From Neisseria zoodegmatis (GTDB lineage: Bacteria > Pseudomonadota > Gammaproteobacteria > Burkholderiales > Neisseriaceae), in assembly GCF_900187305.1 (NCBI RefSeq), contig NZ_LT906434.1, positions 186,001 through 250,000 on the forward strand: DNA of 64,000 nt. The letters are read 5' to 3'. Shown here piece after piece: positions 1-12,254 of the stretch. Each line of letters starts with the position of its first letter. The stretch's first letter is position 1. A program made the position numbers and the translations under genes. The notes under the pieces are model-generated. The model saw only the letters and a program-made list of their open reading frames with translations. It searched no databases and was not told where the DNA came from.

Positions 1-2804
1 AGCCGCCCGAAGGCGGCTGCCCGCAGGCATCAACCCGCTTACCCAATTGCATGAGTTTCAACACACAGCCGCCCGAAGGCGGCTGCTGCCGCCCGTGTCT
101 TCCGAGCTGCTGGTCACTCACGTTTCAACACACAGCCGCCCGAAGGCGGCTGCCTGCGCGATTTGTTCAGCGGCTTTATTGCCATTCTCTGTTTCAACAC
201 ACAGCCGCCCGAAGGCGGCTGCCGCGGCCAAAAACGCATCGGCCTGCGCGCGGGTCTGGTTTCAACACACAGCCGCCCGAAGGCGGCTGCTTTTACTTTG
301 GGGGCTGCGTACTTGGTTTTTTGGGTTTCAACACACAGCCGCCCGAAGGCGGCTGCCACACCCTTTTTCTGCAAAAACTGTACCGTCTCCAGTTTCAACA
401 CACAGCCGCCCGAAGGCGGCTGCGTGTTTCGAGCACATCATCATCGCAGGTTTGCGGGTTTCAACACACAGCCGCCCGAAGGCGGCTGCTATCTCTGTAT
501 AGATATTGTCCTCAGCGTACAAAGTTTCAACACACAGCCGCCCGAAGGCGGCTGCTGATTGTGAGCAACCAATCAACGGTCAAGACAAAGTTTCAACACA
601 CAGCCGCCCGAAGGCGGCTGCGTAATTAACGCCCAATCCTGCGTTTCCAGCAGTGTTTCAACACACAGCCGCCCGAAGGCGGCTGTCACGCAGTTTCAGA
701 AAGCTGAACAAAATGAAGATGTTTCAACACACAGTCGCCCGAAGGCGGCTGCTGTGTAGGCTGTATCTCGCACTTATGCGGCTGGTAGTTTCAACACACA
801 GCCGCCCGAAGGCGGCTGCTTTCCTGTTTAATCGAGTTGCCTGACGCACCACGAGTTTCAACACACAGCCGCCCGAAGGCGGCTGCGACTATGGCAAATC
901 CAAAAAAAGACACCCTCGTCGTTTCAACACACAGCCGCCCGAAGGCGGCTGCCAAAAACTCAATAGTTCGGGGGAGCGATGAGCTAGGTTTCAACACACA
1001 GCCGCCCGAAGGCGGCTGCGTTGCCGGTTGCCGTGCTGGATGCGTTGGCGCTTGTTTCAACACACAGCCGCCCGAAGGCGGCTGCAGAAGGTGGCTTGGC
1101 CTTTTTAACCGGCTTTATTGTTTCAACACACAGCCGCCCGAAGGCGGCTGCTTGGGGCGCAGGCAGAATGTCCATCGTGTCGGGTTTCAACACACAGCCG
1201 CCCGAAGGCGGCTGCTGGCGGTAGCAGCTGTATTTTACCCTCTGCCAACGGTTTCAACACACAGCCGCCCGAAGGCGGCTGCGCCTTTGCTTTCGCCGTA
1301 TTGCTCGCAACAAGAGTTTCAACACACAGCCGCCCGAAGGCGGCTGCCGCAAATTTTCCATACGATATAGCATACTGTCTGGTTTCAACACACAGCCGCC
1401 CGAAGGCGGCTGCTTTGACAATTGTCGGCATCACTTTCCTTGAGTGGTTTCAACACACAGCCGCCCGAAGGCGGCTGCTGCCCGCCAAGCTGCAACAAGA
1501 CCCGACTTGGCGTTTCAACACACAGCCGCCCGAAGGCGGCTGCCGGTTTTTTGACCTTTAAGGGGACTTTGATGGTGTTTCAACACACAGCCGCCCGAAG
1601 GCGGCTGCGAATAATTTCATCGGCAGTTGCCTCAACAATACGGTTTCAACACACAGCCGCCCGAAGGCGGCTGCCCATGCAGGATCAGGGTGTTCAGGTC
1701 GGTATATGGTTTCAACACACAGCCGCCCGAAGGCGGCTGCTCTCGCGTACTCTGATTTGGTTTTCGTTCCACTTGTTTCAACACACAGCCGCCCGAAGGC
1801 GGCTGCAGCAGCTTGACTATTTGGCCGACCGCAAACTGGTGGTTTCAACACACAGCCGCCCGAAGGCGGCTGCGAAAGCAGGAATTTAACATACCTTTGC
1901 ATTACTTGTTTCAACACACAGCCGCCCGAAGGCGGCTGCCTGAATCTGATTTATTAGGTTTTCTGATAAAAGGCGTTTCAACACACAGCCGCCCGAAGGC
2001 GGCTGCCATCAACATATGCACGATTGATGCGGTTTTGCCCGTTTCAACACACAGCCGCCCGAAGGCGGCTGCGGTAGCGTAATATTCAAGGCCGTTTTTT
2101 TATTGTTGTTTCAACACACAGCCGCCCGAAGGCGGCTGCTAAACCTGATTAAGTCTGATTTCGGCCACATCGAGTTTCAACACACAGCCGCCCGAAGGCG
2201 GCTGCGCCAGCTTTTCGGCTTGTGTTTGGTTGAATTTCTTGTTTCAACACACAGCCGCCCGAAGGCGGCTGCTTAAACAAGGCCAAGTCGGCATCATTGC
2301 TGATAAAGTTTCAACACACAGCCGCCCGAAGGCGGCTGCAACTTGCTTTGCCGCGCTGTTGACGTATGCTGTGTTTCAACACACAGCCGCCCGAAGGCGG
2401 CTGCGATTAGGCCAAAAAAAATCCGCCCGAAGGCGGATGTTTCAACACACAGCCGCCCGAAGGCGGCTGCCATGCCATCTTCTCCGCTACTGCAGACACG
2501 CAATGTTTCAACACACAGCCGCCCGAAGGCGGCTGCGTTCATTTCGTAGTCCTTTTTGAGAGGATTTATGAGTTTCAACACACAGCCGCCCGAAGGCGGC
2601 TGCTATTGCGTTCAAGTTTACGCGCTGATTTTAACCTGTTTCAACACACAGCCGCCCGAAGGCGGCTGCATTCAGGCGGGGGAACAGTTCAGATGACCGA
2701 ATATGTTTCAACACACAGCCGCCCGAAGGCGGCTGCCTCTTTACCCGCATCGGTACGCGCTTGCAGCGCGAAGTTTCAACACACAGCCGCCCGAAGGCGG
2801 CTGC
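1..2804 (-). CRISPR. Type I-C CRISPR array, 42 full repeats plus one partial
   Basis: A 32-bp repeat, written on the plus strand as GTTTCAACACACAG then CCGCCCGAAGGCGGCTGC, recurs every 64-69 bp from 55 to 2804; bases 1-20 are the tail of one more, so the array continues past the window. There are 42 spacers here, mostly 33-36 nt. In the reverse orientation the repeat has a 7-bp stem (AGCCGCC/GGCGGCT) closed by UUCG and ends in TGTGTTGAAAC, the layout of type I-C crRNA precursors. The array is therefore inferred to be transcribed on the minus strand from a leader beside cas2. Nearly all repeats are identical; variants are at 655-686 (last base) and 721-752 (a stem base). Open reading frames seen here are artefacts of the repeat. 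Confidence 0.98.
2405..2438 (-). terminator. Array spacer 6 that is an intrinsic terminator
   Basis: In the direction of array transcription this spacer reads ATCCGCC-TTCG-GGCGGAT followed by a run of T, then GGCCTAATC. That is a perfect 7-bp GC-rich stem with a UUCG loop and a U-tract, a classic Rho-independent terminator. It is the sixth spacer from the leader, so 36 spacers within the window lie downstream. Its stem-loop core matches the core of the CRISPR repeat. Termination in vivo is inference. Confidence 0.75.
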
Positions 2805-2994
2805 AGCCTTCTCAGAAACCTTTATCCATCAAGGCTTGCACGGCCCTGATTCGCTAAAACTCTCCGAAAACGCGAAAAGCGAGTATAACACAGCCTTATT
2901 CCGCCACACCCGCTTTCCTAATGTCCTGATTGTTAAAGAACAATTCCGCATCGCTAACCTCCCCATGTTTTCATGAGAACCACGGGTTAGCGAT
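2805..2994 (-). promoter_or_regulatory. CRISPR leader with inverted repeats and candidate promoter
   Basis: The gene-free stretch between cas2 and the first repeat. A 10-bp inverted repeat (ATCGCTAACC at 2950-2959, its complement at 2985-2994) directly follows the cas2 stop and encloses a second hairpin (CATG-AAAA-CATG core). A further palindrome, ATTGTT-AAAG-AACAAT, spans 2929-2944. A minus-strand TATACT at 2882-2887 is a candidate -10 box about 80 bp before the first repeat; its -35 is weak. Leader identity follows from its position and repeat orientation. Confidence 0.75.
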
Positions 2995-3288
2995 TCACAC
3001 GATCAGCGTATCCTGAAACACATCTACCGCCGCTTTCGCGCCGTGATGTTCCACCTTGCGCCGCCATTTGCTGCCCAGATGGTAAAAGCGCAGACTGTCG
3101 GTTTCGGGCTGGTAAGTATCCAGCAGCTTGGCCTTCAGTTTTACCCATTGATCCGGCGTAACGTCGCACTCGAATACCGAATATTGCACGCGCACGCCGT
3201 AGTCCAAACAATGTTTGGCGATGCGCCGCAGCCTCGCCTGCCCCTCTGCATCTTCCAGCGAAATATCATAAGTAATCAACATCAACAT
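2995..3288 (-). CDS. cas2: CRISPR-associated endonuclease Cas2, type I-C
   Basis: 97 aa, the normal size for I-C Cas2. It opens with MLMLITYDIS, the first beta strand carrying the conserved Asp of the ferredoxin-like fold, and contains the family pattern RLRRIAKHCLDYGVRVQYSVFEC. Cas2 forms the structural core of the Cas1-Cas2 integrase that inserts new spacers at the leader end. The start is supported by AGGGG five bases upstream. It is the last cas gene and abuts the leader. An inverted DUS pair separates it from cas1, so it may be less strongly expressed than cas1 (inference). Confidence 0.97.
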   Translation of the reverse strand: MLMLITYDISLEDAEGQARLRRIAKHCLDYGVRVQYSVFECDVTPDQWVKLKAKLLDTYQPETDSLRFYHLGSKWRRKVEHHGAKAAVDVFQDTLIV

Positions 3289-3365: not shown

Positions 3366-4379
3366 TCAACGCATCAAAAACGGCGGATACTCTGCCAAAT
3401 CCCCTCGCAGATGCCGCGCCAGCAGCATCGCCTGAATATACGGCAGCAAGCCGATTTCCACTTCCTCCTGCAAAAACGGATGCATAATCTTTTCCTGCTT
3501 CTTGCTTTGCAGCGTTTGAAACAGCAACTTGCGCGCTTCGGGCTTGATATTCACCGCGCCGCTGGCCTCATGCACAAAATCCTGCGGCTTGATTTGCCCG
3601 CGGTTAATCAGGGAAAGCACCAACCTGTCCACCCACCATGCGCGGAACTCTTCCAAAATATCCTGCGCCAAACTGTCGCGCCCCGGCCGGTCGGCATGCA
3701 GAAAGCCCACCTGCGGATCCAAGCCCACGCCCTGCAACGCCCCGCTGATGTCTTTGCCCAGCACCGCATACAGAAAAGACAACAGCGCATTCACCCCATC
3801 ACGCGGCGGGCGGCGGTTGCGACCGTCAAAATCAAAACCGCTTTTCTCCGCAAGCAAATGCCGGAACACCCCGAAATAACGCGCCGCCGCATCGCCCTCA
3901 ATCCCGCGAACCTTGTCCAAACACTCCGCCCGCTTCAACTGCTGCAAAGAAAAATTCAACGCCGTTACCGCCGCCAACACCTCCGCATGCTCGCCATGAT
4001 TACGCAAACGCCGCTGCAACACCCGCTTGGCCGACTGAATCTTCGCCGCAATAATATGCCGCGCAATCGGCACAGGATTCTGCTCCGACTGCCGATACTG
4101 CGCCCGCCGCAACAACACATTACCACTCTGCCGCCCCTGCAAACGCCCCAAAAACCGCCCGTTCTCGGTAAAAAACGCCAAATTCACATTGTTTTCGCCG
4201 CAAAAACCCATCAAAAACGGCGACACCAGCACATTGCCGAAACAAAATATATGCCCGATCGCATGCACCGGCAACTGCGCCACCTTCTTGCGCTCCTGCT
4301 CCACCACCAGCGTTTCCCGCTCCTTATGCAGATAACTGCCTTGGGTGGTGATATAGAGCGTGTTTTGCAGTTTGCGCAT
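3366..4379 (-). CDS. cas1: CRISPR-associated integrase Cas1, type I-C
   Basis: 337 aa, full length. N-terminal beta-rich domain followed by the alpha-helical catalytic domain. The metal-binding triad is visible as Glu161 (in RGIEGDAAARYF), His228 (in VGFLHADRPGRDSLAQD) and Asp240. It forms the spacer-integrating complex with Cas2, with Cas4 selecting PAM-containing prespacers. In compact I-C loci cas1 normally follows cas4 directly; here a membrane protein gene and a MITE-like repeat lie between. No frameshift or missing catalytic residue is seen, so adaptation is probably functional. Confidence 0.97.
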   Translation of the reverse strand: MRKLQNTLYITTQGSYLHKERETLVVEQERKKVAQLPVHAIGHIFCFGNVLVSPFLMGFCGENNVNLAFFTENGRFLGRLQGRQSGNVLLRRAQYRQSEQNPVPIARHIIAAKIQSAKRVLQRRLRNHGEHAEVLAAVTALNFSLQQLKRAECLDKVRGIEGDAAARYFGVFRHLLAEKSGFDFDGRNRRPPRDGVNALLSFLYAVLGKDISGALQGVGLDPQVGFLHADRPGRDSLAQDILEEFRAWWVDRLVLSLINRGQIKPQDFVHEASGAVNIKPEARKLLFQTLQSKKQEKIMHPFLQEEVEIGLLPYIQAMLLARHLRGDLAEYPPFLMR

Positions 4380-4554: not shown

Positions 4555-5346
4555 TTAGCTTAGAATATCAGCATTTTGTTGAGCTATATTTATAGTTTCT
4601 ACAACCTGTACTGGTCTAGATAAACTTTTTAACTGCATAACGTCATTTTTTATTGCGTCAAATTCACTACCAGATTTGGATATTAAAATATGTAACGGTA
4701 TTTTACCTTTCCCAGGCGAATTTCTATATAATCCAACTAGCGCTTTACTATCAGTTAATATTATTGACGATCTAAAATAACCTTTTGAGTACATATAAAT
4801 TTCAAAATTATGCTTTGAATATCTATCTGAAAAATTTTTTATCTCCTTGACAGCTTGATCAATTTTATTCTTATATGAATTAATATCATCTTTACCATTA
4901 GCATGACACAGAAGTTTAGCTGCATCAGATTCCCCATCTAACAAAATAAATGTAGTGGTCATACCTTCTTTTTCAAATCTATTACATAAATTTTCAGCAT
5001 TCTGCGTAATGAAAAACTTTCCATCATTCATGGCTATAATAAATACTTTTGATTCTTTAAAATCAAGTGATTCGATACTTCCATTTTCTAAAATAGAGGC
5101 AATTCCAACTTCATTAGCTTTTTGAAGAAGTGGTATTTCATTAAATATGAAATCCTTAGTTTCCTTTTGCAGAAATTTAGATATAGATAGAGCTGAAAAA
5201 AGAGCTATCCCAATATTTGACGATAAACTAGTCCACATATTATTTTCTTGAAATAACAAAGGAACAATTATAGACATCACAAGTAACGCTACTATTCCCC
5301 ACAGAGACAGTTTTTCTAACCATAAATTAATAGGCTTTTTATTCAT
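4555..5346 (-). CDS. Two-TM membrane protein with degenerate PLD-like domain, inside cas operon
   Basis: 263 aa, not a known cas family. Two hydrophobic segments lie near residues 13-32 and 38-57. A soluble domain of about 200 residues follows, presumably cytoplasmic. Patterns such as LLQKANEVGIASILENG, TTTFILLDGESDAAKLL and FRSSIILTDSKALVGLYRN resemble the catalytically dead PLD-like sensor domains of some bacterial regulators; no HxKxxxxD motif is present (assignment tentative). The gene is strikingly AT-rich beside the GC-rich cas genes, has its own ribosome site (AGGATAA) 36 bp after cas4, and is followed by a MITE-like repeat, all signs of later insertion. Candidate CRISPR accessory or abortive-infection membrane protein; function unknown. 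Confidence 0.85.
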   Translation of the reverse strand: MNKKPINLWLEKLSLWGIVALLVMSIIVPLLFQENNMWTSLSSNIGIALFSALSISKFLQKETKDFIFNEIPLLQKANEVGIASILENGSIESLDFKESKVFIIAMNDGKFFITQNAENLCNRFEKEGMTTTFILLDGESDAAKLLCHANGKDDINSYKNKIDQAVKEIKNFSDRYSKHNFEIYMYSKGYFRSSIILTDSKALVGLYRNSPGKGKIPLHILISKSGSEFDAIKNDVMQLKSLSRPVQVVETINIAQQNADILS

Positions 5347-5382: not shown

Positions 5383-5991
5383 TTATTCCACTCTAAACAA
5401 CCCCGCCACATACCCCACCGACCTATCCTTCTCCACCAACTTCGGCTGGCAAACCTCAATCAACGAACAGGCTTTACAGCGTTTGCCGTATTCGGGCGGC
5501 GGGGTGGTACCGCTGTCCAGTAGTTCGCGCACATTGCGGATAACGTCCAGCGTTTCCGCCCTGAGGCCGTCTGAAAACACCACCGGCACGCGGTGGCGGG
5601 TTTGCATGTACCACAATGCGCCCTCTGCCACCGTTTGCCCGGTCATTTCCTCCAGGCACAGGGCTTGGGCGCAGAGCTGGATTTCATCGAACGGCTCGGG
5701 CTTGGGTTTGCCGCGTTTGTATTCGACGGGCTTCAGACGGCCTGTCTGAATATCGCGCTCGACCATATCCAACACGCCGTGCACACCCAATTTTTCCGCC
5801 GACACATGCACGCTGCGCTCGAAGCGCACGCCCTTGCGCGTTTCCGGCTCGCCGCCGTCCACCCGCTCATGCAAAGCGCTGCCTTGTGCGGTCAAATAGT
5901 TCTCCGCCCATACTTGTTCGTTATGAATCAAGGCACACTGGCGCGGGCAAAAGGCGTAGTGTTGCAGGGCGGAGAGCGGGATGCTTATCAT
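5383..5991 (-). CDS. cas4: CRISPR-associated exonuclease Cas4
   Basis: About 202 aa from the ATG giving MISIPLSALQHYAFCPRQCAL; an upstream in-frame ATG at 6006 has no ribosome site. The N-terminal Cys pair (CPRQC) and C-terminal cluster (CKACSLIEVCQPK) are the four iron-sulfur ligands. The RecB-like core is seen around GVLDMVERD and KPVEYKRGKPK (Asp, Glu and Lys of the nuclease). Cas4 trims prespacers and fixes PAM and orientation with Cas1-Cas2. It is separated from cas7c by a 77-bp nested palindrome that may regulate the adaptation half of the operon. Confidence 0.95.
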   Translation of the reverse strand: MISIPLSALQHYAFCPRQCALIHNEQVWAENYLTAQGSALHERVDGGEPETRKGVRFERSVHVSAEKLGVHGVLDMVERDIQTGRLKPVEYKRGKPKPEPFDEIQLCAQALCLEEMTGQTVAEGALWYMQTRHRVPVVFSDGLRAETLDVIRNVRELLDSGTTPPPEYGKRCKACSLIEVCQPKLVEKDRSVGYVAGLFRVE

Positions 5992-6008
5992 GGTATTTTT
6001 TCTCATTC

Positions 6009-6085
6009 ATAAGCGCTTATTGCGGTAAAAAACATCTATATTAAGCGCTTTATATAGTGTGTTTTTACCATTAATAAGCGCTTAT
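6009..6085. repeat. Triple AAGCGCTT palindrome between cas7c and cas4
   Basis: ATAAGCGCTTAT occurs at 6009-6020 and 6074-6085 with TTAAGCGCTTTA centred at 6041-6052. Centres are 32 and 33 bp apart, close to three helical turns. The intervening arms (GGTAAAAAACA and TGTTTTTACC) are also inverted, so the whole block is one imperfect palindrome. It could be a triple operator, a MITE remnant, or an RNA hairpin separating effector from adaptation genes. Confidence 0.7.
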
Positions 6086-6099
6086 TATGAGAATTTTTA

Positions 6100-6963
6100 T
6101 CACAGAAGTTCTTCTACGGTTACCCCCTTGAGGCCGTCTGAATGCACACTAATGCGGTAATCGCTGAATGCAGCAGCGGGTGTGCCGCTTTCGCCGTGGA
6201 TGCGCTCGACTTTGACGGCTTCAAACAGTTTATGCGCGGGTTCGTTGCCGAGTGCGCTGTCGTGTTTAAAAACAATGAGTTTGCGGGCGGCCATTTCACC
6301 ACGGGCGGCGGAGCGGTCGTGCTCGAACATGAGCCTTAAGGCGTTCCACAGCTGTTGCAGGTCTTCATCGGAGAAGCCGGTTTTGGCGGCAAGGTTGGCG
6401 GAAACGAAGCCGTGCACACGATAGAGTGCATAGGGGACGATGTATTTGCGCCCCATGGTGCGTTCTTTTTCGAGGTCTTTTTCGTTGGTTACGGCCATGC
6501 GGGTGATGGAGACTTCCAGCGGCACGATGGGGTCGACGGATTGGGCGAAGGCGAGCTGCACGGGGCCGCGCACTTGGCCGCTGTTGACTTCAGTGGTCAT
6601 CACTGCACCGAAGGTACGGATATCGAAGAAATTTTTGCACATCCATGCGGTGATGTCGCGGGCTTTGGCTTCGTCTTTGGGCAGCTTTTTGGCTTCGGAT
6701 TCGATGCCGAGGGCTTCATAAGCGCGTTTGTTTTGCAGGTTGAGCACGCTTTTTTCTTTCACGTAAATCTCATAGCCCGCTTGGTTTTCGTTGGCCAGCT
6801 CCACAAAGTTGCGGATTTTGCGCTTCAGGCACACATCGGTTACCAAGCCTTTGCTGGACTCGGGGTCGAGGCGCGGCATATTGCCGGCGTCGGGGTCTCC
6901 ATTGGGGTTGCCGTTGGTTACGTCGAAGAAAAACACGAATTCGTAGCGGTTTTGGATACTCAT
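6100..6963 (-). CDS. cas7c: Cascade backbone protein Cas7c (Csd2)
   Basis: 287 aa from the ATG (a GTG codon directly precedes it; AGGAG is eight bases from the ATG). The N-terminus [27 protein letters not shown] is the hallmark of Csd2/Csh2-type Cas7. RAMP-fold subunits coat the crRNA in several copies and set the six-base periodicity in which every sixth guide base is flipped out and not read. Translationally close to cas8c (18 bp gap). No truncation is seen. Confidence 0.97.
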
Positions 6964-6981
6964 CACTTTATCTCCTTGGAT

Positions 6982-8853
6982 TTATTCGTCTTCAGAATCA
7001 GATTCTGTCTTCAAATGATTGGCCAGCTCAATGTCTTCAGGAACATCTCCACCTTCTTGCTTGCTGTATTTTTTGAACCGCTGTTGGTAATAACCAATGA
7101 CAAAACGGCCTTGTTCTTCCAGCGATAAATGGCGGGGGAACGGGGTTTCAGCATCAAAAACGCTGACAATTTCCCCAACTTTGTTTTCCAGCCAATTGGC
7201 CAGTTTTTTAGAATCTCCTGTTACCCATTTTGCTTTTTTACCTTTTCTCAAGCCGGAGATGTGGGTACGGTAATTATCCAAAAGCAAGGGGAAAGTGCTG
7301 TGCGGCGAACTGGAAGCACCGCCGTAAAATTTATCTCTCACACCGGCATTCAACTCCCCCAAAGCAGATGATTGCGCCAATTCGATAATGGCAAACAAAC
7401 GCCCCAAGCGGTACGGAATGTCTTGAGTTTCTTCATTAAGCCCCATATCAAACTCCTCTTTGCATAAATTGTTACGTTTTAAAACCGATTTAATTACCGC
7501 TACCCGCAGGCCGCTAATGAAGCCGTCCGAGCGGATACGGCCAATCATGCGCGACAGCATGGTTTGCGGATAATGCCTGCCCGTTAAGATGGCACGCATG
7601 TATTCCCCTGCCAATTGCGGCGGAATGTCTTTGCTTTCCGACTTTTTCAGACGGCCGTCGGCTCCTTTGCGCTTGGGCGTGGTTTCCAGCAATATCCGCC
7701 AAACGGAAGGCGGTTTTGCACCCCATACAGGCGGGTTAATCGACAAATCATCGCGATGTTTTTTGATATTTTCCGCCAGCTTGCCAAACGTGGTATCCAG
7801 CCAAAAACGGATGGAAATGCGCGAAGCATTGGGTGCCAAACCCAAAATATAAAAACGGGTTTGGTCGTCCAAATTCGGATCGATTTCCCGAAGCGGGCGG
7901 CCTTTGACCACTTGCGCCAAAACATCGAAGATTTTCTGGTTTTCCTGCTCATCGTCGGGCGGTGTCATCGCGGCGGCAAAAAAACCTTCCGCTGCCTCAG
8001 CTTGCTCGGGCGTGGCGGCTTCTGCCCAGAAAACGGTGCTGGCATCGCCGATGGTCAGGCAATGGCCGTTTTCACGGCGCAGCAAGTAATTGAGTGCGGT
8101 GGTATAGGCAAAGGCAGACACTTCCGACACCGGCGCATTCGCACCCTGCTCTTTGCCGAAAGAAGTGAACGATTCCTTGTTGAAGGAAATAATCATACCA
8201 CCAGACTTTTCTCCGCCCTCAACCCCTTTAATAACTGGATGTGTACGCGCAATCGGTGCTTGTTCGCCGCTTACCAAACACAAACCCTGCTCTGCTTCAT
8301 CGCTTTGCAAATGATTGACCCACAAGGATTGTGCCGCTTCACACTGATGAATATAGCCGTGTGCACCGTCCAATTTAAACACTACGTTGGCATCGAGCAT
8401 GTCAGGCAAACATGGCGGATGGGCAAATTGCTCGGGCTGCCAACGTTCCAAAAAACGGCTCAAGGCCAACAAACCTTTGTCTTGCTCTTTCTCCAATAGC
8501 CTAAAGTGGTATTCTCTAAATGAAGAAAAACACCTGTTTGTTCTGTCCTTATCTTTTGTTTCTTTTTTAGTAACACCCAAAATATATTGGGTGTTACCCC
8601 AAAGAAAATTTGGCTTAATACTGTTGCTATTAGAGCCTCCTGTTTTAGGCACACTCATCAAGCGGGGCTGCGGCTTTTTGCCCTCAGTCGTAAAATGCTG
8701 CACCACATCCACCAACAGGCCGTCTGCATCCAACACCAGCACCCAACCGATTTTTTCTTCGCTAAACCCATAAGGTGGCACTTTCGGATTGCCCGCCACA
8801 TCATTTTCAGCCGCCAAGCGGCGGTAATAGCGTGCAAGAGCGGTCAAAATCAT
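6982..8853 (-). CDS. cas8c: Cascade large subunit Cas8c (Csd1)
   Basis: 623 aa, usual Csd1 size. It opens with MILTALARYYRRLAAE and contains the Csd1-typical IGWVLVLDADGLLVDV and the C-terminal helical region that acts as the small subunit in I-C. Cas8c recognises the PAM (5'-TTC in I-C systems) and positions target DNA for Cas3. Its ATG overlaps the cas5c stop by 4 bp, indicating coupled translation. A short AT-rich stretch around 8500-8640 (residues about 70-118) differs from the rest and may be a variable loop. Confidence 0.96.
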   Translation of the reverse strand: MILTALARYYRRLAAENDVAGNPKVPPYGFSEEKIGWVLVLDADGLLVDVVQHFTTEGKKPQPRLMSVPKTGGSNSNSIKPNFLWGNTQYILGVTKKETKDKDRTNRCFSSFREYHFRLLEKEQDKGLLALSRFLERWQPEQFAHPPCLPDMLDANVVFKLDGAHGYIHQCEAAQSLWVNHLQSDEAEQGLCLVSGEQAPIARTHPVIKGVEGGEKSGGMIISFNKESFTSFGKEQGANAPVSEVSAFAYTTALNYLLRRENGHCLTIGDASTVFWAEAATPEQAEAAEGFFAAAMTPPDDEQENQKIFDVLAQVVKGRPLREIDPNLDDQTRFYILGLAPNASRISIRFWLDTTFGKLAENIKKHRDDLSINPPVWGAKPPSVWRILLETTPKRKGADGRLKKSESKDIPPQLAGEYMRAILTGRHYPQTMLSRMIGRIRSDGFISGLRVAVIKSVLKRNNLCKEEFDMGLNEETQDIPYRLGRLFAIIELAQSSALGELNAGVRDKFYGGASSSPHSTFPLLLDNYRTHISGLRKGKKAKWVTGDSKKLANWLENKVGEIVSVFDAETPFPRHLSLEEQGRFVIGYYQQRFKKYSKQEGGDVPEDIELANHLKTESDSEDE

Positions 8854-9524
8854 TTTTTCACCTCCTCCGCAAAAAACGGCGGCACTTCAACCACCCCGTT
8901 TTTCATCTCCGCACGGAAAAAGTGCGGCAGATTGCTACCGTCGAAATCAATATCGTGCAGCATCCAACCCAAATCGCGGTCGCGCTCGTTTTCAGGTAGC
9001 TCCGACTCCGTCAGCGAATCCTCATCCACCCACGCAAAATGCGCCGGAAACTCGCGCACGCCCATGCAAGGCTGCTGGAAACACTGCCCTTTTGCGGCGC
9101 GGCGTTTAAACATCTCGATATGCTTGGCAACCGTTTCGCCCTCGCCCGCCTGCGGCGTTAACACGGCATGCGCCTCAATCACATAGCCAACATCTTTCAA
9201 CACCGTCGCCGCGCGCTGCTGACGGTCATCCTCAATCAGCGCATACAAATCTTCCACACGCTTGCGCCGCATCGCCCCGCTAACCTTGCTGGCCAAAATC
9301 TTGCTGCCCAGCTCATTGCGCCGCACCGACTCGAAACGAATCGGCTTCAACACATGAATACGGTCAACCACCCAACGAATCGCCGGCTTCCAATGCACCG
9401 CTGCCAAAATCCCCCGCGCCGCCGACGGTGTAATCACATCGTAAGACACCCGCTCCACTTTCATCTCCGGGCGGGTAAAGCAGGCGTAGTCGCCCCAGAT
9501 GTGTAAACGAACTTTATTCTCCAT
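8850..9524 (-). CDS. cas5c: Cas5c, pre-crRNA endonuclease and Cascade subunit
   Basis: 224 aa from MENKVRLHIWGDYACFTRPEMK; a GAGGAGAGAG ribosome site lies upstream, and the open frame further 5' runs into CRISPR-like repeats and is not coding. In I-C systems Cas5 replaces Cas6: it cuts the repeat at the 3' base of the hairpin, leaving an 11-nt 5' handle, then caps the crRNA. The RAMP fold and conserved PSAARGILAAVHWKP segment are present. It lies directly downstream of the mini-CRISPR, so its own mRNA leader contains a probable Cas5c cleavage site. Confidence 0.96.
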   Translation of the reverse strand: MENKVRLHIWGDYACFTRPEMKVERVSYDVITPSAARGILAAVHWKPAIRWVVDRIHVLKPIRFESVRRNELGSKILASKVSGAMRRKRVEDLYALIEDDRQQRAATVLKDVGYVIEAHAVLTPQAGEGETVAKHIEMFKRRAAKGQCFQQPCMGVREFPAHFAWVDEDSLTESELPENERDRDLGWMLHDIDFDGSNLPHFFRAEMKNGVVEVPPFFAEEVKK

Positions 9525-9545
9525 GCACCGCTCTCTCCTCTGCTT

Positions 9546-9639
9546 CTTGTTCAATCCACGCCTCCCCGAAGGGAGGCGGTTTTCATTTGAAATCATGACA
9601 AATTGTTTCAATCCACGACTATCTCAATTCAGATAATCG
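9546..9639 (-). ncRNA. Mini-CRISPR: two divergent I-C repeats around a 25-nt guide
   Basis: On the minus strand a repeat-like hairpin (CGATTATCT/AGATAGTCG, loop GAATTG) ends in TGGATTGAAAC (9605-9639). A 25-nt guide (9580-9604) beginning AATTTGTCATGATTTC follows, then a second hairpin (CGCCTCCC-UUCG-GGGAGGCG) ending in TGGATTGAAC (9549-9578). TGGATTGAAAC is the canonical I-C handle; the two stems differ from each other and from the main array. The guide matches the site at 9947-9971 beside a TTC PAM. Predicted product: a Cas5c-processed crRNA-like RNA that directs Cascade to the cas operon (CreR/CreA type). Repeats and match are seen; function is inference. Confidence 0.8.
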
Positions 9640-9648
9640 AAACCCCTC

Positions 9649-9879
9649 TTATTTTTTGTCGCGTGGCGGACAAGGATCATTTCCGTAGCTGTTACCCGCC
9701 CGAATCCTGCCATCCATTCCGTGAATCTTGGTATCTGCACGCTGATTTTTGGCAATTTCCTGCGCACGGATAATGGCCTCCTTCTGTGTTCCATAGACAG
9801 CTGTCGCCTTGCTGTTCCCTGCTCCCTTAACTGCCCATCCGTCAGAATGAGGGACAACATGTTGATTTTTCTTGCTCAT
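9649..9879 (-). CDS. Small DUF2188 protein inside the cas operon
   Basis: 76 aa beginning MSKKNQHVVPHSDGWAVKG and ending near DGRIRAGNSYGNDPCPPRDKK; the HVVP...GWAVK...A..EAI..A..IA...HG.DG.I....SYGNDP pattern is DUF2188, a family of unknown function. AAAGGAG lies eight bases before the ATG, and a plausible promoter (9908-9936) precedes it. It ends ten bases before the first pseudo-repeat of the mini-CRISPR. It sits where the toxin gene lies in CreTA modules, between the guided-repression target and the crRNA-like RNA, but toxicity is only a hypothesis. Confidence 0.9.
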   Translation of the reverse strand: MSKKNQHVVPHSDGWAVKGAGNSKATAVYGTQKEAIIRAQEIAKNQRADTKIHGMDGRIRAGNSYGNDPCPPRDKK

Positions 9880-9907
9880 AGCTAACTCCTTTACTTGCAG
9901 AGACTAC

Positions 9908-9936
9908 AGTCTAATACCTCCATCTACTCTATGCAA
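9908..9936 (-). promoter_or_regulatory. Predicted internal promoter of DUF2188-cas5c-cas8c-cas7c
   Basis: Minus-strand TTGCAT (9931-9936) and TAGACT (9908-9913) are separated by exactly 17 bp, 28 bp before the DUF2188 ATG. The boxes are imperfect but position and spacing suit a sigma70 promoter. The TTC PAM of the mini-CRISPR target begins eight bases upstream of the -35 box. Confidence 0.5.
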
Positions 9937-9943
9937 TATTTTT

Positions 9944-9971
9944 TTCAATTTATCATGTTTTAAATGACACT
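9944..9971 (+). promoter_or_regulatory. Candidate self-target of the mini-CRISPR guide
   Basis: TTC PAM at 9944-9946 followed by AATTTATCATGTTTTA. Against the guide, positions 1-5, 7-11, 13-15 and 17-18 match; mismatches in the first 18 are at 6, 12 and 16. Positions 6 and 12 are flipped out of type I crRNA-DNA duplexes. Beyond 18 the match decays, as expected for a site that is bound but not cleaved. It overlaps the cas3 stop codon. Confidence 0.7.
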
Positions 9972-12254
9972 CCTTTCAGCGGCAATGAAGATGCTGTTTT
10001 CCCAACTCAACCCCGCTACTTTGTCATACAGACCCAGACCAATCAGGCGATAAAACTGCTTGCCAAACCGCTCGTCATTGATGGCTTCAATACGGCCATC
10101 TTTGAAGAGTGCCTGCATGGCGCGCTCGGGCACTTGTACGGTGTAGGGCTGGAGCTTGCGCAGCAGTCTGCCGATTTGGTCGGCATGGCGCAGGCTGTCG
10201 ATCAGGCGTTCGGCTTCTTGGTCGAACGGGATAATCAGCGGCTGCATATGGCTTTCGATCATGCGGAATTTTTGGGCGATGGTTTGGAAGGGGAAATTGA
10301 GGCTGTTGCCTGCCTTCTTGTGCATTTCAAGAATGCCTTTGCTATCTAATTCTTTGCCTTTTTCTTCGTAAACGCGCTGGAAATAGCGGCGGATGGCTTG
10401 CGGCGACAATAGGTCGTCCGCGTGGTGGCGCACGACTTCGCGCATGGCGGCGGAGAGTAGACCGAGTTCGGACGGGGCTTTCCATTGTTCTTCGGGTTTG
10501 AACACCCAGACGAAGCTGTTTTCAGACGGCCTTTTGCCTTCGCGGTTGCAGCGTCCTGCGGCTTGGGCAACGCTGTCCAATCCGGCTTCGGCACGCATCA
10601 CCAAGGGGAAATCGACATCTACACCCGCTTCAACTAAAGAACTCGCAATCACACGGCAAGGTTGGCCGTTTTTCAGGCGGCCTCGGATGGTTTCTAACAC
10701 TTGGCTGCGGTGTTTGGCGCACATCAGGGTGGTGAGGTGGAAAACGCCGTCAAGCTGTTTGGCGCTGTCGTACAGGCTGCGGGCGTGGCGGCGGTTGTTG
10801 ACGATGATGAGAATTTGCTTGTGCTGTGCGAGCTTTTCGAGCAAATCGGCATCGGTCTGGATGCCGATATGTTGCACGGTAGTGCGGCGCAGTTTGTCGA
10901 ACAGTTCAGGCGGATTGGGGGCAAGCTCGCGGGTATTTTCTAAACCGCGATAAAAGCCATGTTCGGCCTGGATCGCGGGCTGGGTGGCGGTACACATGAC
11001 GACGGAGCAATGGTAGTTGCGCGCCAGCTCTTTAACGGCCTGCATGATGGGCAGCAAGAGTTTGAGCGGCAGCATTTGCGCTTCGTCGAGGATAATCACA
11101 CTGCCGGATATATTGTGCAGCTTGCGGCAGCGGGAGGAGCGGTCGGCAAACAGCGATTCGAAAAACTGCACGGCAGTGGTAACCACCACGGGCATATCCC
11201 AGTTTTCGGAAGCTTGGCGCAGTTTGTCTTTGCTGTGCTGGTCTTTGAGTTTACTGTCGTCAAACGTGCTGTGGTGCTCCAGCACGGCATCCTTGCCCAA
11301 ATCGCCAAAAGCCTTGCGGAACTCGGCGGCGTTTTGCTCGATGATGCTGGTGAAGGGAATCACATAAATCACGCGGCGCATGCCGTGGCGCTTGGCATGT
11401 TCGAGAGCGAAGGCCATCGAAGTGAAGGTTTTGCCGCCACCGGTGGGTACAGTGAGGGTAAACAGCCCCGGCGCTTGCTCTGCCTGACTCACGGCGTGGT
11501 CGAGAATATCGCTGCGCAGGCGGTTTAGGGCGGCATTGCGCTTATCTTCTTCGGTTTGCTGCGGCTTTTCGGCAATACGCCGTCTGAAATCGCCGATAAA
11601 GCGGTTAAAGCGTTGTTGCAGCTGCAATAAATCGGGATGACCGCCGCGCTGCACGGTTTTATCTTCCAAGCCCGCATAAAAGGCTTCGGTGTCGAGATAA
11701 TCGGCATCGACCAAGCAGGAATACAGCATGCGGGTAAAGAAGGCGTAAGAGAAAAAGGGATGGTGTTTGTCAGCCTGCAAGGGGGACGCGGGCAAAGTTT
11801 GCGGCAGGCTGATGTCCTGCTGCCACACCTCATCCGGCTCGGGAATATCGTGAATGCCTTTGCCGAATGGCACGGCCAAGCGTTGGGTTAAGGTGCGGCG
11901 GTTATCGCCCTCGCTGTTTCCGTTTGCCAAGCCTGCGTGATGGCCGGCAATGCAAAACGCCATCAACTTGCCCTGCAACCCCCAACGCTCGAAAGCGATT
12001 TTTGCGCCAGCCGTGGCATGGTCAACCGATGGCCCACCATGCAGGCGGCGGTTAAATTCCGGCGTGTATTTGCCCAAATCGTGCAATTGGCCGGTATAAC
12101 GCGCCATTTCCTCCGCACCAAAAAAAGCGGCAAACCTTGCAGCCGCCTCACCCACATTGTGGGCATGGCTGCGCATGGTTTGCCAGTATTCGTAAGGTTG
12201 GTTTTCGGCGGAATGGGCGTAGTAAATTCTGATAGTTTGATGATCCACAGACAT
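9960..12254 (-). CDS. cas3: CRISPR-associated nuclease-helicase Cas3
   Basis: 764 aa from the ATG; the GTG two codons later (12248) is better spaced from TTGGAG and may be the true start. N-terminal HD nuclease domain with His32, His58-Asp59 (LHDLGKY), VDHATAGA and IAGHHAG; then a DExH-type helicase with Walker A TVPTGGGKT (268-276), DEAQ box (390-393) and MCTATQPA. Cas3 is recruited by target-bound Cascade to nick and degrade DNA. First gene of the locus; a weak minus-strand -10 (TATGAT, 12306-12311) lies upstream. Confidence 0.97.
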   Translation of the reverse strand: MSVDHQTIRIYYAHSAENQPYEYWQTMRSHAHNVGEAAARFAAFFGAEEMARYTGQLHDLGKYTPEFNRRLHGGPSVDHATAGAKIAFERWGLQGKLMAFCIAGHHAGLANGNSEGDNRRTLTQRLAVPFGKGIHDIPEPDEVWQQDISLPQTLPASPLQADKHHPFFSYAFFTRMLYSCLVDADYLDTEAFYAGLEDKTVQRGGHPDLLQLQQRFNRFIGDFRRRIAEKPQQTEEDKRNAALNRLRSDILDHAVSQAEQAPGLFTLTVPTGGGKTFTSMAFALEHAKRHGMRRVIYVIPFTSIIEQNAAEFRKAFGDLGKDAVLEHHSTFDDSKLKDQHSKDKLRQASENWDMPVVVTTAVQFFESLFADRSSRCRKLHNISGSVIILDEAQMLPLKLLLPIMQAVKELARNYHCSVVMCTATQPAIQAEHGFYRGLENTRELAPNPPELFDKLRRTTVQHIGIQTDADLLEKLAQHKQILIIVNNRRHARSLYDSAKQLDGVFHLTTLMCAKHRSQVLETIRGRLKNGQPCRVIASSLVEAGVDVDFPLVMRAEAGLDSVAQAAGRCNREGKRPSENSFVWVFKPEEQWKAPSELGLLSAAMREVVRHHADDLLSPQAIRRYFQRVYEEKGKELDSKGILEMHKKAGNSLNFPFQTIAQKFRMIESHMQPLIIPFDQEAERLIDSLRHADQIGRLLRKLQPYTVQVPERAMQALFKDGRIEAINDERFGKQFYRLIGLGLYDKVAGLSWENSIFIAAERSVI

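Follow-up and report, generated by a model that had tools for sequence, protein, structure and literature searches.

A two-repeat mini-array between cas3 and cas5c of a Neisseria type I-C operon encodes a 25-nt guide that pairs in part with a site over the cas3 stop, and across related loci such guides and their targets covary. The guide probably directs Cascade to repress a promoter that would serve a cargo gene, the guide itself, and the Cascade genes; the arrangement would be like that of the CRISPR-suppressed immune systems (CRISIS), with feedback built in, and not that of a pure cas-regulating RNA (CreR).

Anatomy of the operon and its mini-array

The window, meaning the whole stretch of DNA that was analysed, is 64 kb of a 2.55-Mb Neisseria genome and holds a complete type I-C set in one operon (cas3, cas5c, cas8c, cas7c, cas4, cas1, and cas2). 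The features, by position in the window, are the following.

1..2960, minus strand: main CRISPR array, GCAGCCGCCTTCGGGCGGCTGTGTGTTGAAAC; 42 repeats counted, left end cut by the window and right end approximate
2995..3288, minus strand: cas2
3366..4379, minus strand: cas1
5383..6006, minus strand: cas4
6100..6966, minus strand: cas7c (TIGR02589, type I-C Cas7)
6982..8853, minus strand: cas8c (TIGR01863, type I-C Cas8c)
8850..9527, minus strand: cas5c (TIGR01876, type I-C Cas5c)
9549-9639, minus strand: mini-array of two repeats, between cas3 and cas5c
9549..9579, minus strand: mini-array repeat 2, handle GTGGATTGAAC (one A short), 8-bp hairpin, from sequence and fold
9580..9604, minus strand: guide (pseudo-spacer) of 25 nt, from sequence
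9605..9639, minus strand: mini-array repeat 1, 5' handle GTGGATTGAAAC, 9-bp hairpin, from sequence and fold
9649..9879, minus strand: cargo gene DUF2188 (PF09954), PADLOC candidate PDC-S16, 76 aa, from Pfam and PADLOC
-35 at 9936-9931 and -10 at 9913-9908, minus strand: possible sigma-70 promoter TTGCAT-17-TAGACT, read by eye, weak match to consensus
9944..9946, plus strand: target PAM TTC, from sequence
9947..9971, plus strand: target protospacer, partial match (15 of 18 from the PAM), over the cas3 stop, from sequence
9960..12254, minus strand: cas3, stop at 9960-9962

Two divergent I-C repeats around a 25-nt guide between cas3 and cas5c had been put forward in a preliminary description of the locus, and this anatomy was borne out base by base. 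Repeat 1, folded with three extra bases, gave -10.5 kcal/mol (z of -3.3 against shuffles), and repeat 2 gave -17.5 kcal/mol (z of -3.5). The handle of the mini-array is GTGGATTGAAAC, while that of the genome's own array of 42 repeats is TGTGTTGAAAC. The mini-array is not built as an ordinary immune array: its repeats and handle are unlike those of the main array, its spacer is about 25 nt long, and the site that it matches lies in its own operon. Among viral contigs, searched for exact matches only, there is no copy of the first 22 nt of the guide. Cas5c is the repeat-processing subunit in type I-C. Downstream of the possible promoter lie, in order, DUF2188, the mini-array, cas5c-8c-7-4, a 263-aa ORF, and cas1-2. 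The 263-aa ORF (4555-5346, minus strand), placed between cas4 and cas1, interrupts the cas operon a second time and has no match in Pfam, NCBIfam, or PADLOC. A 25-nt repeat containing ATAAGCGCTTATT occurs twice at 5997-6086, between cas7 and cas4, and is also an inverted repeat.

Guide and target in the window

Counted from the PAM, guide and target match at positions 1-5, 7-11, 13-15, and 17-18 and mismatch at 6, 12, and 16, exactly as had been claimed, and the target does overlap the cas3 stop (9947-9971 covers 9960-9962). The PAM is TTC; passages of a study on the I-C system of N. lactamica give TTC and TTT as its consensus PAMs (PMC10865793). Besides the guide itself, the target is the best 18-nt match to the guide in the 64-kb window, the runner-up having 14 of 18, and none of 200 shuffled guides equalled its score at a TTN PAM anywhere in the locus (16 kb). 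The pattern TTHAATTTNTCATGNTTT, which joins the PAM to positions 1-5, 7-11, and 13-15, has a single exact match in the 2.55-Mb genome, and that match is the target; two sites have one mismatch, and the sites with at most two mismatches number 27 in all versus 13 for the reversed control.

Mini-arrays in related loci

A Cas5c search of 46 genomes of the same genus found a match in 28, the window genome included, and the window's genome and 15 others with Cas5c at E <= 2e-60 were followed. Contigs of GTDB genomes were likewise scanned with Cas5c; this gave at least 578 relatives, of which the best 80 were kept. The 16 fetched regions, one of which is the window's, and these 80, less six duplicates (L051, L052, L053, L055, L065, and L122), make 90 distinct Cas5c loci, 40 of which have a mini-array just before cas5c. 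Mini-arrays were recognised by the repeat handle, with patterns loosened after sight of the sequence for L037, L060, L063, L072, and L098; L123 has a handle-like match with a 10-nt gap in coding sequence and was counted as having none. The second hairpin is clear in most mini-arrays and weak in L090, L094, and L110, and the guides comprise many unrelated sequences. Since cas3 is in reach in 38 of the 40, L045 and L072 were left out of what follows. Where the gap between cas3 and cas5c exceeds 150 nt, 38 loci have a mini-array and 14 do not; where it is smaller, none of 36 has one. The Fisher test on these counts is weak evidence, because a mini-array needs about 90-150 nt, the cut-off was chosen post hoc, and the loci are related. 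A solitary degenerate repeat in reverse orientation was seen by eye in L046, between divergent cas3 and cas5c.

Covariation of guide and target

Sites were scored at 15 contact positions (1-17 minus 6 and 12) beside a TTN PAM, taking all sites of each locus, for 38 guides. For 32 of the 38, the best site falls in the interval from -60 to +80 nt around the cas3 stop, as against 264 of 7600 shuffled guides; the binomial P for this count, about 5e-41, assumes independent loci, which these are not. In 25 of the 32 loci, the score of the site is reached by at most six of 200 shuffled guides; in L035, L049, L050, L066, and L121, at least 20 of 200 reach it. Sites were also chosen afresh, by a TTH PAM and positions 1-5, 7, and 8 alone, in the interval from -60 to +260 around the cas3 stop. 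All seven of these positions match in 27 of the 38 loci (22 non-redundant guides). Outside the positions used for the choice, 9, 10, and 11 match in 18, 22, and 21 of the 22 guides and 13 and 14 in 16 and 18, and agreement is down to chance by position 18 or so. Over positions 9-11 and 13-16, the loci's own pairs agree at 118 of 154 positions, and the best of 20000 re-pairings reaches 77; with positions 7 and 8 counted, which had been used in choosing the sites, the figures are 162 of 198 and 104. Guide and target covariation in other Neisseria I-C loci, named in the preliminary description as a test, was thus found, and it extends to Pasteurellaceae, Cardiobacteriaceae, and other Proteobacteria.

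Reading by a type I Cascade predicts free variation at positions 6 and 12. Across the 22 guides, position 6 matches in three and position 12 in seven, both at chance, as expected if the two are unread, a point already made in the preliminary description, and the odd mismatch pattern in the window is explained by this free variation. On comparison of the loci, a crRNA-like regulator used by I-C Cascade without cleavage, as the preliminary description had proposed, is strongly supported. The same pattern bears on the idea that guide and target are two operators of one DNA-binding protein and are alike for that reason. They do lie near each other in one operon; however, one copy stands behind a repeat handle and the other usually behind TTN, positions 6 and 12 are at chance, and most loci have a sequence of their own, unlike a conserved operator. 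The mismatch pattern rules this explanation out, and it is given hardly any probability at all. It is also highly improbable that the mini-array is a leftover, with degenerate repeats around an old phage spacer and a match at the end of cas3 arising by chance in AT-rich DNA. The divergence of the repeats and the shortness of the spacer (25 nt versus about 34) would suit such a leftover, but covariation across loci, the location of the targets, and the mismatch pattern speak against it, as do the sole exact fit of the pattern in the genome and the lack of an exact viral match to the first 22 nt. As a general account, chance matching or a leftover spacer is ruled out by covariation, location, and the genome-wide pattern search.

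Exceptions are found in six of the 38 guides, which do not have their best site at the cas3 stop. Full-seed sites occur at +219 in L059 and at +96 in L105, and in L043 and L057 the site at the cas3 stop merely ties with a site elsewhere. The site in L063 is between the cargo and the mini-array, right before the latter, an arrangement that would be plain autoregulation of the CreR kind. For the guide of L098, no site was found at the cas3 stop. These six suggest that some guide-target pairs have decayed or work otherwise.

The possible promoter at the target

A predicted promoter next to the target was part of the preliminary description. Its boxes are present, but they agree with consensus at only 3/6 and 4/6 positions (7/12), and a strict scan of 9500-10000 on both strands found no promoter, the TTGCAT/TAGACT pair included. 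That pair was picked by eye, and the promoter finder ranked another pair first in the window. The -35 had been placed eight bases from the site; the gap between PAM and -35 is in fact seven bases. The possible promoter points toward DUF2188. Several relatives have better boxes than the window's at the same place: the -35 starts 10-12 nt from the edge of the PAM in L032, L034, L039, L048, L058, and L059, and the weak pair of the window starts at 10. For targets on the opposite strand (L090, L094, L105, L110, and L120), the -35 begins 40-46 nt from the end of the PAM. Evidence for the promoter across loci is partial, since for many others the finder gave different spacings, poor boxes, or none.

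The cargo gene DUF2188

Between the target and the mini-array is a 76-aa ORF that was absent from the preliminary description. It matches DUF2188 in Pfam (PF09954, E 2e-23) and the phage-defence candidate PDC-S16 in PADLOC (E 1e-35), which is a candidate and not a proven system. The family is large, with 2786 homologues at E 1e-3, and members in Vibrio, Alteromonas, and Pontiella still have 78-81% identity; in an alignment of 34 sequences (33 drawn from the best 120), 28 of the 76 residues do not vary. An AlphaFold model (pLDDT 70) predicts, with moderate confidence, the order strand-strand-strand-helix-strand-strand; it has no match in the PDB at E <= 0.001, and a sequence search of the PDB was empty. 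DUF2188 has no match to a toxin family. By tblastn, six of the loci carry DUF2188 (the window, L034, L037, L039, L048, and L059). Guide positions 7-11 comprise four different sequences in these six, and the target mismatches the guide there at one position of one locus. The DUF2188 frame of L037 is broken near its start, and its guide and target still pair.

Cargo between cas3 and cas5c in relatives

The target holds its place at the cas3 stop as the cargo grows, from a few hundred bases in small slots to 1.7-4.0 kb (L040, L042, L054, L058, L060, L066, and L067, with a tied site in L043), 10.1 kb (L036), and 11.4 kb (L032). PADLOC defence families are matched in 10 of 12 scanned guide loci with large cargo; the scan left out L035 and the SIR2 partners in L054 and L057. 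The large cargoes are the following.

L032: type III restriction-modification (RM), DrmD-like helicase, and RhuM
L035: resembles L032 by ORF layout
L036: type III RM, REase_III
L066: remnants of type III RM with REase_III
L042: Gabija GajA/GajB
L043: SIR2 and HerA
L054 and L057: HerA
L063: Dsr2 (DSR2)
L058: PD-T4-4
L040: PDC-M48B
L060: NA37 by Pfam, no PADLOC match
L067: 443-aa protein, weak PADLOC match only

The clearest sign of cargo exchange between fixed regulatory edges comes from Neisseria L040 and Rodentibacter L054, which have identical targets, near-identical guides, and different cargo. Such cargo can also do without a guide, since 14 loci with a gap above 150 nt have no visible mini-array.

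Cargo without a mini-array, among others: Thoeris in L061; GmrSD in L038 and L044; Old-like ATPase in L033 (L056 alike by Pfam); Dsr2 in L064

A GIY-YIG-like ORF was seen by eye in the slots of L104 and L125, where no mini-array was seen.

Small slots hold other things. ORFs of 42-54 aa with one hydrophobic stretch are present in 7 of 20 small-slot loci scanned (L041, L076, L086, L101, L102, L116, and L118). By eye, L074, L082, and L115 also have small proteins with one hydrophobic stretch, the overall range being about 42-68 aa. These proteins are possible membrane toxins. In some small slots (L037, L039, L047, and L041), the greedy ORF caller picked the wrong frame, so DUF2188 in miscalled slots was taken from tblastn and small membrane ORFs from the hydrophobic-stretch scan or by eye. 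The slots of L090, L094, and L098 have no ORF of 35 aa or more and hold little besides the mini-array. L105, L110, and L120 have no convincing ORF, and by eye they show a compact segment with a GC-rich hairpin and the look of a structured RNA; these segments may be RNA cargo of the CreT type. A strong ribosome-binding motif and a tiny start-codon hairpin were seen by eye in L105 and L120.

Comparison with known systems

Several systems in which CRISPR effectors repress genes have reportedly been described: CreTA by Li et al. (2021, Science), CreR by Liu et al. (2023, Cell Host Microbe), CRISIS by Shu et al. (2024, bioRxiv 2024.12.27.630466), and CrePA by Shu et al. (2025, Nat Chem Biol). Regulatory mini-arrays in many type I loci, with spacers partly matching the promoters of cas or cargo genes, are said to have been reported by Shmakov et al. 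(2023, NAR gkad495); the mini-array of the window would be like these in its standalone repeats and in a spacer partly matching a presumed promoter.

CRISIS, in which a CRISPR complex represses, is reported via passages of PMC12409349, and by analogy the window locus is probably a member in kind, with feedback of the CreR sort. A candidate defence gene, DUF2188/PDC-S16, is embedded between cas3 and cas5c, and known defence systems are embedded in the slots of relatives (for example, Gabija in L042). As for a guide at the cargo promoter, the pairing of guide and target is firm, but the promoter match is weak and went unfound by the strict scan. The locus differs from CRISIS, as far as those passages describe it, in its subtype (I-C), in the fixed place of the slot, at the junction of cas3 and cas5c, and in its DUF2188 cargo. 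It also differs in where the guide is encoded: DUF2188, the mini-array, and the cas genes lie behind the possible promoter, so the guide is downstream of the promoter region that it apparently targets.

CreR is reported in types I-B, I-E, and V-A in passages of PMC13131331 and is treated also in PMC12737573. The window shares with it, on these partial accounts, a crRNA-like guide, partial complementarity to a presumed promoter inside a cas locus, and a likely feedback through Cascade; it differs in being I-C and in that cargo comes first after the target, with cas5c-8c-7 further downstream, behind the cargo gene. A reading as CreR only, with the guide as a Cas autorepressor, the promoter serving mainly cas5c-8c-7, and the cargo a passenger between promoter and cas5c, is rather unlikely. 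It would suit the position of the mini-array and the Cascade genes, which are downstream of the target in the same direction, as well as the existence of CreR in those three types. No other promoter was found in 9500-10000, where the scan missed the proposed promoter as well; in L063, the target is directly before the mini-array, and L090, L094, and L098, holding little else than the mini-array, suit pure Cas feedback. Against this, 32 of 38 loci have the target ahead of the cargo, at distances from cas5c of up to 11.4 kb, and not beside it; 10 of the 12 large guide-bearing cargoes scanned belong to defence families by match, and between L040 and L054 the cargo differs where guide and target are kept.

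CrePA and CreTA are alike in principle. Passages of PMC12737573 describe CreP as typically a KilA-N toxin, and passages of PMC9458426 describe CreTA as having degenerate ectopic repeats and a guide that directs Cascade to a nearby gene, CreT being an RNA toxin. The window would share with CrePA the repression of a protein gene by a guide RNA and a CRISPR effector, and with CreTA the degenerate ectopic repeats and a guide that would direct Cascade to repress a nearby gene. It differs from the former, as described there, in having DUF2188, with no match to a toxin family, in place of KilA-N, and from the latter in having a protein gene where CreTA has an RNA toxin, although some relatives may have RNA cargo. 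A CRISPR-dependent toxin-antitoxin, with a toxic cargo and a guide through which the cell comes to depend on Cascade, is likewise doubtful. Consistent with it are the short ORFs with a hydrophobic stretch (7 of the 20 small-slot loci scanned) and the compact, RNA-like cargo seen by eye in L105, L110, and L120, and CrePA, in the passages cited, has a protein toxin released by Acr (PMC12737573); DUF2188, very conserved, with 2786 homologues, and itself without a toxin family match, argues against it for the window.

Proposed mechanism and implications

In the preferred reading, which joins cargo control to feedback, Cas5c would cut the transcript of the mini-array into a crRNA-like RNA that is loaded into type I-C Cascade. 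With a PAM and a seed match, Cascade would then bind the promoter region just behind cas3, and the short match would not allow the full R-loop needed for cutting by Cas3. Bound Cascade would block the promoter and so repress the cargo (DUF2188/PDC-S16), the mini-array, and cas5c-8c-7. If Cascade were inhibited by an anti-CRISPR, titrated by crRNAs, or in short supply, the promoter would be freed; the cargo would then be produced, as a second defence line, and the stock of Cascade would be restored. According to passages of the N. lactamica study, I-C Cascade directed to a TTC site represses a promoter, and it functions with a single-repeat guide (PMC10865793).

Feedback on the level of Cascade, as proposed in the preliminary description, is only one half of this reading. 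It stands as a likely by-product, because the mini-array and cas5c-8c-7 are downstream in the same direction; control of the cargo in the slot is the other half. Since the target lies before the cargo slot and is kept at the cas3 stop even with 10-11.4 kb of cargo, control of the cargo is at least as likely as autoregulation of the Cas genes.

Whether the cas3-cas5c junction of many proteobacterial I-C loci is more generally a regulated plug-in slot, with edges that co-evolve, contents that are swapped, and one promoter that drives cargo, guide, and Cascade in a single loop sensing free Cascade, is an evenly balanced question. At one edge of such a slot would be a Cascade target with a promoter, by the cas3 stop, and at the other, ahead of cas5c, the mini-array with the guide; the contents would be whole defence systems, small membrane proteins, DUF2188, or RNAs. 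If this is true, removal of Cascade by an anti-CRISPR would deploy a second defence and replace Cascade together. The natural covariation suggests that the compact I-C Cascade is probably a gene regulator that works from a seed-driven match of about 11-17 nt, with positions 6 and 12 free. Because the I-C system of N. lactamica already serves as a repression tool, the model is testable in laboratory strains. DUF2188, widespread and very conserved, becomes a testable candidate for second-line defence, and new anti-phage genes can be sought in the cas3-cas5c interval beside a mini-array.
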